Position numbers and translations under genes: made by a program
Assembly (NCBI RefSeq): GCF_002487355.1
Contig: NZ_NTMG01000053.1
Span: 1-41,245 of the forward strand
Origin: Candidatus Methanoperedens sp. BLZ2
Lineage (GTDB): Archaea; Halobacteriota; Methanosarcinia; Methanosarcinales; Methanoperedenaceae
Direction of reading: 5' to 3'
DNA: 41,245 bases
Part shown: one piece after another, positions 38,680 through 41,245 of the stretch
Layout: each line of letters opens with the position of its first letter
How positions within the stretch are numbered: the stretch's first letter is position 1
Notes under the pieces: generated by a model
The model's database searches: none
What the model saw: the letters and a program-made list of their open reading frames with translations, nothing else
Told to the model about the DNA's origin: nothing

Positions 38680-40770
38680 TTATTTTGAAGAATTACGTTT
38701 AGTTTTATTGGACTTAACTTCCTTTACTTCAATTTTTGGCTCTTTTATCAATCCATTCTTCTTTTCTTCTTCAATCTTCTTCTGCCACTCATTAAAATTA
38801 CAGTGCGGGCATCCGATTTCCCAGGGGCGCTTTCCTTTGTTCACTATTTTAATATGGAAGAGACCATGATCACTGCATTGCTTTTCAGTGACTACGATCT
38901 GTCCGATTTTAGGCAGCGGAAGAGTGAAATCACAATTTGGATATCCCGAACATCCTATAAACCTTGAACCTTTTTTGGATTTTCGGATGATAAGGTCAGA
39001 AGAACATTTCTGGCATGTTCCGATAACCCTGTCTTCATATAATCCGTTCCTGAGGGCTTCACTTATCAGATCCTTGTTTTTGGTCATATCCTTGAATACT
39101 TCACCCAGCATATCCCTTGATTCCCTGACCACGAAGTCTTCGGTAATCTTGCCTTCGGAAATCTCATCCATGTCTTTTTCAAGTTTGCTTGTCATGTCGG
39201 GTTTAGTGATAGTGCTTGCATATTTTTCAAGCGCCTCAACAACTGCAAAGGCTGTTTTTGTTGGCTGGATGGGATTTCCGTGAACATACGCCCTGGAATA
39301 AAGTTTGGATATTATTTCATGGCGCGTGGATTTTGTTCCCAGGCCCAGGTCTTCCATTATCTTGATAAGATGCCCCTGCCCGTATCTTGAAGGGGGTTGT
39401 GTCTCTTTTCCAACAAGATTTACTTCTTTTACTGTAAGGGATTGGCCTTCTGCTAACTTTGGCAGTATCCTGTCTTCCGGCAGATTATACGAATAATACC
39501 ATCTCCAGCCAGGTTCCATCAGTCTTGCCCCGTTCGCCCCAAAATCCTCACCGCTGATATCAACTGTTACAGCCATTGTTTCCCAGAGTGTCTCGCCTGC
39601 AAATGTTGCGAAGAACCGCCGAACTACAAGCTCATATAATTTCCATTCATCATCTTTAAGCTGGCTTCTCTTTACGGGTGTCGCGGGATGTATAGGTGGG
39701 TGATCGGTAGTTTCTTTCTTGCCTCTTGTGGGCTGGAGTTTTCCAGATAATAGCTTCTGTGCATATTCTTTGAATTCCGTGTTCAGGAAAGATTCAATGA
39801 TCCCTTTCATGTCAAGTGTTTCGGGATAAACGGTATTATCAGTACGCGGATACGAGATGTAACCATTCACGTAAAGGAATTCTGCTATCCTCATGGCATT
39901 TGAAGGGGAAATCCCGATAGCACTTGCCGCTCTTAGGAATTCGGTGGTATTGAACGGCATGGGAGGTTTTTCGCTTCGTTTTCCAAGTATAATACTTTTT
40001 ACTGTTCCGGTTTTTCCAAGTTTTGCCCTGGTCGCTTCAGCTTCTGCCTGATCAAGGAATCGTCCTTTCTTGTGCTGTGCTTCAAATTCCCCGCCATTTA
40101 TAAGTGTAGCATATAGTTCCCAGTAAGGAACGGAGATAAATGTTTCGCGTTCCTTTTCACGGTTGACAATGATTGCAAGAGTAGGTGACTGCACCCTTCC
40201 AACTGACAGGAATTTATCCCCGAGCCTTCCTGAGCTCAATGAAACGAATCGAGTGAGAACCGCACCCCAAATGAGGTCTATGACCTGCCGTGACTCGCCT
40301 GCAGCAGCAAGATTAAAATCGATTTTAACAGGATTAGAAAAAGCTTTCTTGATTTCTGCCGGGGTTATAGTGCTGTAATGGACGCGGTCTGCGGAAATAT
40401 CCGGATTTACTTTTTTCACCACATTCAATGCTTCTACACCTATCAATTCACCTTCACGGTCATAGTCAGTGGCGATTGTCAGGTGTTGGGCGGTTTTTCC
40501 CAGTTTTCGAATAGCAGTTACAATGTTTGCATGGGTTGGGTTTGTAAGAACTTCTGCATGTATCAGGTTCTGTAGATCTGTTTTCTGCCAGTTATTGTAT
40601 TCCTTCGGAAAATCCACTTCTACGATGTGCCCGGATAAGCCAATTACGGCGGTTTCGTTGAATTTATATGTATCAACACCATTTACTCTTTCTTTATCTG
40701 GCTTTTTATCGGATAGTATTGCTGCGATCCTTTTGGCAGTGTCATGCTTTTCTGTTATTATTAAATGCAT
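38680..40770 (-). CDS. topA: DNA topoisomerase I (type IA)
   Basis: A 696-aa protein. TOPRIM residues include ITEKHDTAKRIA and IATDYDREGE (about residues 99-108). The catalytic tyrosine is in GYISYPRTDNTVYP, at about Tyr307. SVGRVQSPTLAI and YGQGHLIKIMEDLGLGTKSTRHEII are the conserved domain motifs. Zinc-ribbon pairs follow near the C-terminus: CQKCSSDL with CSGYPNC, and CSDHG with CPHC. A Lys/Glu-rich tail ends it. It relaxes negative supercoils by single-strand passage. It is first in a transcription unit with the VTT protein. The 120-bp upstream gap is AT-rich, then the tandem array begins. Confidence 0.95.
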   Translation of the reverse strand: MHLIITEKHDTAKRIAAILSDKKPDKERVNGVDTYKFNETAVIGLSGHIVEVDFPKEYNNWQKTDLQNLIHAEVLTNPTHANIVTAIRKLGKTAQHLTIATDYDREGELIGVEALNVVKKVNPDISADRVHYSTITPAEIKKAFSNPVKIDFNLAAAGESRQVIDLIWGAVLTRFVSLSSGRLGDKFLSVGRVQSPTLAIIVNREKERETFISVPYWELYATLINGGEFEAQHKKGRFLDQAEAEATRAKLGKTGTVKSIILGKRSEKPPMPFNTTEFLRAASAIGISPSNAMRIAEFLYVNGYISYPRTDNTVYPETLDMKGIIESFLNTEFKEYAQKLLSGKLQPTRGKKETTDHPPIHPATPVKRSQLKDDEWKLYELVVRRFFATFAGETLWETMAVTVDISGEDFGANGARLMEPGWRWYYSYNLPEDRILPKLAEGQSLTVKEVNLVGKETQPPSRYGQGHLIKIMEDLGLGTKSTRHEIISKLYSRAYVHGNPIQPTKTAFAVVEALEKYASTITKPDMTSKLEKDMDEISEGKITEDFVVRESRDMLGEVFKDMTKNKDLISEALRNGLYEDRVIGTCQKCSSDLIIRKSKKGSRFIGCSGYPNCDFTLPLPKIGQIVVTEKQCSDHGLFHIKIVNKGKRPWEIGCPHCNFNEWQKKIEEEKKNGLIKEPKIEVKEVKSNKTKRNSSK

Positions 40771-40890
40771 CGTGTACCCTCAGAGGTGTCTGGATAAGAA
40801 TGTAACTTGTTTAAATAGGTTTGGTTATAACTGAATATATTTATTTATATATAAGTTATTCTGGGCTTAATATGTTGTAATTCCATTTGC

Positions 40891-41245
40891 CAGGGGAGAT
40901 TTTATATAGGGCATGTAACATACAAGACGCTTCCCGCGTGTGAAATCACGGGTATGTTGTATTGTAAAGACAAAATATATGTTTGGCCGTAATATGCCCT
41001 GTACATGTTCAAAAAAACTGTGCAAGGGAAACTGTTATATACGGTGCAAAACATACAAGACGCTTCCTGCTTGTGAAAACAGGAATGTGTGTTGTAGGAA
41101 AAACAAATATGTTCTCCGATAAACGCCGGAACCGTGTAGAAAAATAATGCGCGAGGGAAAGTGTTATATACGGAAAAAAACATATTATACACTTCCCGCG
41201 TGTGAAAACAGAAAACACAAAGGAAATGTTGCGTTTTGAAAAATA
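40891..41245 (+). repeat. Tandem array of ~130-bp units with promoter and stem-loop
   Basis: Units begin at about 40891, 41023 and 41152; the third is cut by the window edge. Each opens with a purine block (GGGAGA/GGGAAA) and TATATA followed by GG. A conserved ACATA...CGCTTCC segment, CCCG or CCTG, GTGTGAAA-like loop sequence, and CGGG or CAGG follow. The stem pair changes together between unit 1 (CCCG/CGGG) and unit 2 (CCTG/CAGG); in unit 3 it is broken. The TATA box lies about 28 nt before the stem, the usual distance to a transcription start. Open frames over the array are short and differ between units, so coding is unlikely. It may be an array of small RNA genes. Confidence 0.65.

Follow-up and report, generated by a model that had tools for sequence, protein, structure and literature searches.

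Tandem promoter units with candidate leader hairpins at a Candidatus Methanoperedens contig end: very probably the promoter region of an rRNA operon

Three promoter-bearing units at the end of a contig

Why does a contig of Candidatus Methanoperedens end in a row of degenerate repeats, each with an apparent promoter of its own, and what would these promoters serve? The window analyzed here (41,245 nucleotides) comprises all of contig C74, from a 3.7-Mb genome, and it ends inside the third repeat unit. Its last 355 bases contain three degenerate copies of one unit, as seen in the sequence and with a covariance model of the unit (R1). This single model matches all three copies, which confirms the original prediction of three degenerate promoter-plus-stem units upstream of topA (Table 1).

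Each unit consists of a purine-rich BRE-like block, a TATA box and, 25–30 nt downstream, a short stem. The TATA-to-TATA spacing is ~134 bp between units 1 and 2 and ~129 bp between units 2 and 3, and the window has two occurrences of GGGAAANTGTTATATACGG, with 0.02 expected. A promoter in each unit had been anticipated, and a BRE-like block and TATA box are indeed present in all three; transcript starts near 40930, 41062 and 41190 are plausible from the promoter spacing. Tandem Repeats Finder, run on the window, did not report the array, since its copies are too diverged. A coding repeat was rejected: the Pfam search returned no match, in line with the predicted absence of a coding frame across the units, and the lengths of unit indels are not multiples of three.

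Table 1. Coordinates of the array, its flank and upstream elements. Positions without a locus name refer to the window; R1, which gave the E-values, was built in part from the window's own three units.
Feature	Coordinates	Strand	Basis or remark
topA, flank outside the array, divergent neighbor of the rRNA operon copy	38680..40770	-	ORF; 94% identical in L024, which continues into the array and 16S rRNA
Unit 1	40890..40984	+	R1 match, 72.3 bits, E 8.5e-10; sequence
Unit 1, parts	BRE-like block 40890-40900; TATA 40901-40908; predicted start ~40928-40930; stem CCCG/CGGG 40933-40936/40949-40952	+	Sequence
Unit 2	41023..41116	+	R1 match, 82.9 bits, E 1.6e-11; fold z -1.97
Unit 2, parts	BRE-like block 41023-41034; TATA 41035-41041; predicted start ~41061-41063; stem UUCCUG/CAGGAA 41064-41069/41080-41085	+	
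Imperfect dyad ACCGTGTAG..ATGCGCGAG, immediately before the BRE of unit 3	41132..41155	+	Weak form of the relatives' dyad
Unit 3, promoter-proximal, 3' end cut by contig end	41152..41245	+	R1 match, 67.3 bits, E 5.6e-9
Unit 3, parts	BRE-like block 41152-41163; TATA 41164-41170; predicted start ~41190-41192; UUCC/GGAA 41193-41196/41222-41225, inner GUGU/ACAC	+	
P0 promoter, examples	L018:1374-1470; L015:1379-1475; L002:1365-1461; others		

The units lead into 16S rRNA in relatives

In METP1, the closest public relative, a single contig (L024) carries topA and, in the orientation seen in the window, two units, a ~300-nt leader, a complete 16S gene, a tRNA and 23S, and locus L020 has the same order on one contig. 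The relative G003 holds both copies of the array, one linked to topA (L020) and one to a NAC-like gene (L004), with 16S after each; unit 3 of the window aligns with L004:541-638 (minus strand), which runs into 16S rRNA 385 nt further on. At every locus with enough downstream sequence, the array immediately precedes 16S rRNA and shares its strand, with the 16S start 339–415 nt past the last unit, and the remaining loci reach a contig end 90–275 nt after it. The array had been expected to continue past the window, but the contig ends where the window does, and relatives have the leader and 16S rRNA at that point, not further units. The 16S gene was found neither in the window's contig nor in its own genome bin, so this array is tied to 16S by orthology only.

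The covariance model matched 22 of the 31 genomes of the genus; the nine unmatched ones may lack rRNA contigs or have diverged promoters. Among 150 genomes of the order, matches were confined to the genus, the only exception being a weak match within its family, which also directly precedes 16S. The number of units per locus differs between species, from one to three, and the topA-linked copy of G003 resembles the promoter of unit 1 joined to the body of unit 2; we read this as a sign that recombination adds and removes units.

Since the units were seen nowhere but ahead of 16S rRNA, we interpret the array as an rRNA operon promoter region. We are highly confident that it is a tandem promoter region, with three promoters in series, and that it belongs to an rRNA operon present in at least two copies in this Candidatus Methanoperedens species; its reading as promoters is all but certain. 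The earlier view that the array is not a satellite was right. Replication-origin boxes, considered from the repeated TTCC..GTGTGAAAAC, were rejected once 16S was seen downstream.

Two rRNA copies and two contig ends

A genome-wide search for units, suggested in the original prediction, was run with the covariance model; it returned five units at two loci in the whole genome, both at contig ends. The other array copy is on contig C80, which stops at the identical base, carries units 2–3 at 98% identity and has the array downstream of a NAC-like gene (named by eye), not topA. Multi-copy rRNA genes, present in two or more operons, commonly break or collapse in assembly, which accounts both for two contigs ending at the array and for a bin without 16S.

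Two near-identical copies, both at contig ends, might also be expected of a dispersed repeat, or of part of a mobile element that was copied to two sites. The two rRNA operons account for these copies, however, the genome holds no others, and both copies in G003 lead to 16S; the rRNA linkage refutes this explanation, which we consider practically negligible. A mobile element was rejected for want of further copies in the genome, and an inverted repeat linking C74 and C80 was rejected as well, both copies in G003 running into 16S.

Between the two rRNA copies, units 2–3 (window 40890-41245 against L002:1501-1740) are 98% identical, and the sequence further upstream is unrelated. This pattern suggests gene conversion that stops at a sharp boundary near 41006. 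Near the second rRNA copy, L003:15905-17070 on contig C80 contains two overlapping minus-strand ORFs, which by eye look like a frame-broken IS21-type transposase.

Probable hairpins at the predicted transcript starts

Two stems at the predicted 5' end recur across 39 distinct units, with 85.5% of cells paired: one is UUCCU/AGGAA, which encloses an inner GUG/CAC, and the other is GUUGUGUU/AAUACAAC. The structure is based on manual pairing, covariance-model alignment and single-sequence folds; RNAalifold on a MAFFT alignment of the units gave no useful consensus fold. In alignment A2 of the 39 units, which was fitted to the structure model, 33 both-side changes fall in the stems, compared with 12.1 ± 3.0 in shuffles and 3–16 in slid versions, and the MAFFT-only alignment A1 shows a weaker excess (10 against 5.2; 5/500). 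Single-sequence folding, which uses no alignment, gave z-scores below -2.8 in 14 of 20 units, and in most relatives the hairpins fold better than shuffled sequence. On average the two strands have equal fold z-scores (-2.7), so the strandedness of the hairpin rests mainly on the promoter-proximal units, in most of which the plus strand folds better. Conserved, covarying secondary structure of this kind, looked for as a mark of a small RNA family, is also expected of a leader element, and it is to be read with the A1 signal and the strand z-scores in mind. In genome G022, hairpin 1 (L014:1414-1534, minus strand) has an extra stem, CCUCGUAU/AUACGAGG, inserted in the loop, with the outer stem retained.

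Selection on RNA structure had been proposed from the first two units of the window, and the change from CCCG/CGGG to CCTG/CAGG is present there. By itself it is insufficient to support RNA structure, and unit 3 lacks that stem: UUCC/GGAA and GUGU/ACAC are its only pairings, and they enclose a larger loop. The fold z-scores of units 1, 2 and 3 (+0.3, -2.0 and +0.3) are among the weakest, with units 1 and 3 folding no better than shuffles; the window alone therefore does not prove structure, and it is the relatives that carry the signal. Selection on structure is probable across relatives, given the 39-unit covariation, and RNA structure in the units is likely, not proven.

Upstream dyad and P0 promoter

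The imperfect dyad before unit 3 is near-perfect in many relatives, where it reads CTCGTGTAT-n6-8-ATACACGAG and abuts the BRE (L103, L104, L014, L105, L106). Its arms change together, with G-U pairs tolerated (CTCGTGTAT/GTATGCGAG, CCCGTATAT/GTGTGCGGG), and it is missing from four first units, each without a recognised upstream promoter. Many rRNA copies have an extra promoter, P0, ~130 bp upstream of the first unit, matching the array spacing; it is followed by GGGGAAGC (conserved GTAGTNGGGGAAGC) and a different, variable potential hairpin. The P0 element had no Rfam match, and RNAalifold on its MAFFT alignment gave no useful consensus fold. P0 would agree with a picture in which a hairpin opens every rRNA transcript and further ones come after it.

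Archaeal activator sites abut the BRE, as this dyad does, and the stem and dyad could be DNA operators bound by an activator or nucleoid protein, and not RNA structure, a reading that leaves the promoter array intact and competes with its RNA part only. Fold z-scores that are on average equal for both strands agree with it. On the other hand, dyad pairing is kept through sequence change, G-U pairs included, the dyad is missing where no upstream promoter was recognised, and hairpins 1 and 2 covary downstream of the predicted start; operator sites are thus possible but rather unlikely.

The same features bear on the original prediction of serial small RNA genes, in which each unit would yield its own short structured RNA ending before the next promoter. 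Each unit has a promoter, the hairpins covary, and the further dyad at the unit end in many relatives could cap a short RNA. Yet that dyad has no U-run after it, the units stand only immediately upstream of 16S rRNA, one to three of them depending on the species, and only the 16S leader lies downstream of the last one. The independence from a downstream gene and the diverse loci that would characterize a small RNA family were not seen, the units being restricted to rRNA operons, and no Rfam family matches the unit at gathering score. We regard serial small RNA genes as highly improbable and replace them with tandem rRNA promoters and an initially transcribed leader.

A model for the array and comparison with known systems

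Under the tandem rRNA promoter reading, the BRE and TATA box of each unit would recruit TBP/TFB and then RNA polymerase, and a pre-rRNA transcript would begin ~25–28 nt downstream of each promoter. Every transcript would cross whichever units remain and then the leader before entering 16S-tRNA-23S. The 16S gene would begin ~385 nt past the unit 3 start, at about position 41537, which the contig does not reach. Promoters in series could provide high and adjustable rRNA output. We infer that one or two small hairpins open each primary transcript and work in cis while the leader is being made; most likely they would protect the 5' end, load an elongation or processing factor, or do both. The hairpin is probably a cis-acting part of the pre-rRNA leader, with its role there likewise inferred. 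The promoter units, their position before 16S in relatives, their conservation across the genus and the covariation are supported by the sequences; promoter starts and promoter activity are predicted.

A puzzling repeat thereby becomes an annotated rRNA promoter region, and the ending of two contigs there is explained. It also offers a leader hairpin open to testing, in a lineage whose rRNA promoters are not described in the literature we found. The original prediction knew of no described family with this layout, but tandem rRNA promoters are established in archaea, and a counterpart exists in the multiple tandem promoters of haloarchaeal rRNA operons (PMC4983044). According to that paper, the Halobacterium rRNA operon has five tandem promoters, and rRNA transcription in Haloferax volcanii starts at three sites, which lie 185, 293 and 444 nt ahead of 16S. 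As there, several archaeal promoters ~100–150 nt apart precede a 16S-23S operon, in both operon copies in Haloferax; the lineage and sequences differ, and the starts here are predicted. The genus-specific hairpin at each predicted transcript start, of which the text consulted gives no description for haloarchaeal promoters, is the only new detail in an arrangement otherwise of known kind.

Bacterial rrn operons, according to the abstract of PMC10250234, combine tandem promoters with a boxB-boxA-boxC leader that serves antitermination. It is doubtful, if conceivable, that two to three covarying hairpins at +1 of each rRNA promoter form a Methanoperedenaceae-specific archaeal counterpart of such bacterial antitermination/leader sites, or are released as short RNAs reporting promoter activity. 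The array resembles the bacterial arrangement in joining strong rRNA promoters to a small leader hairpin near the pre-rRNA start, and differs from it in repeating the hairpin in every promoter unit and in its archaeal transcription machinery.
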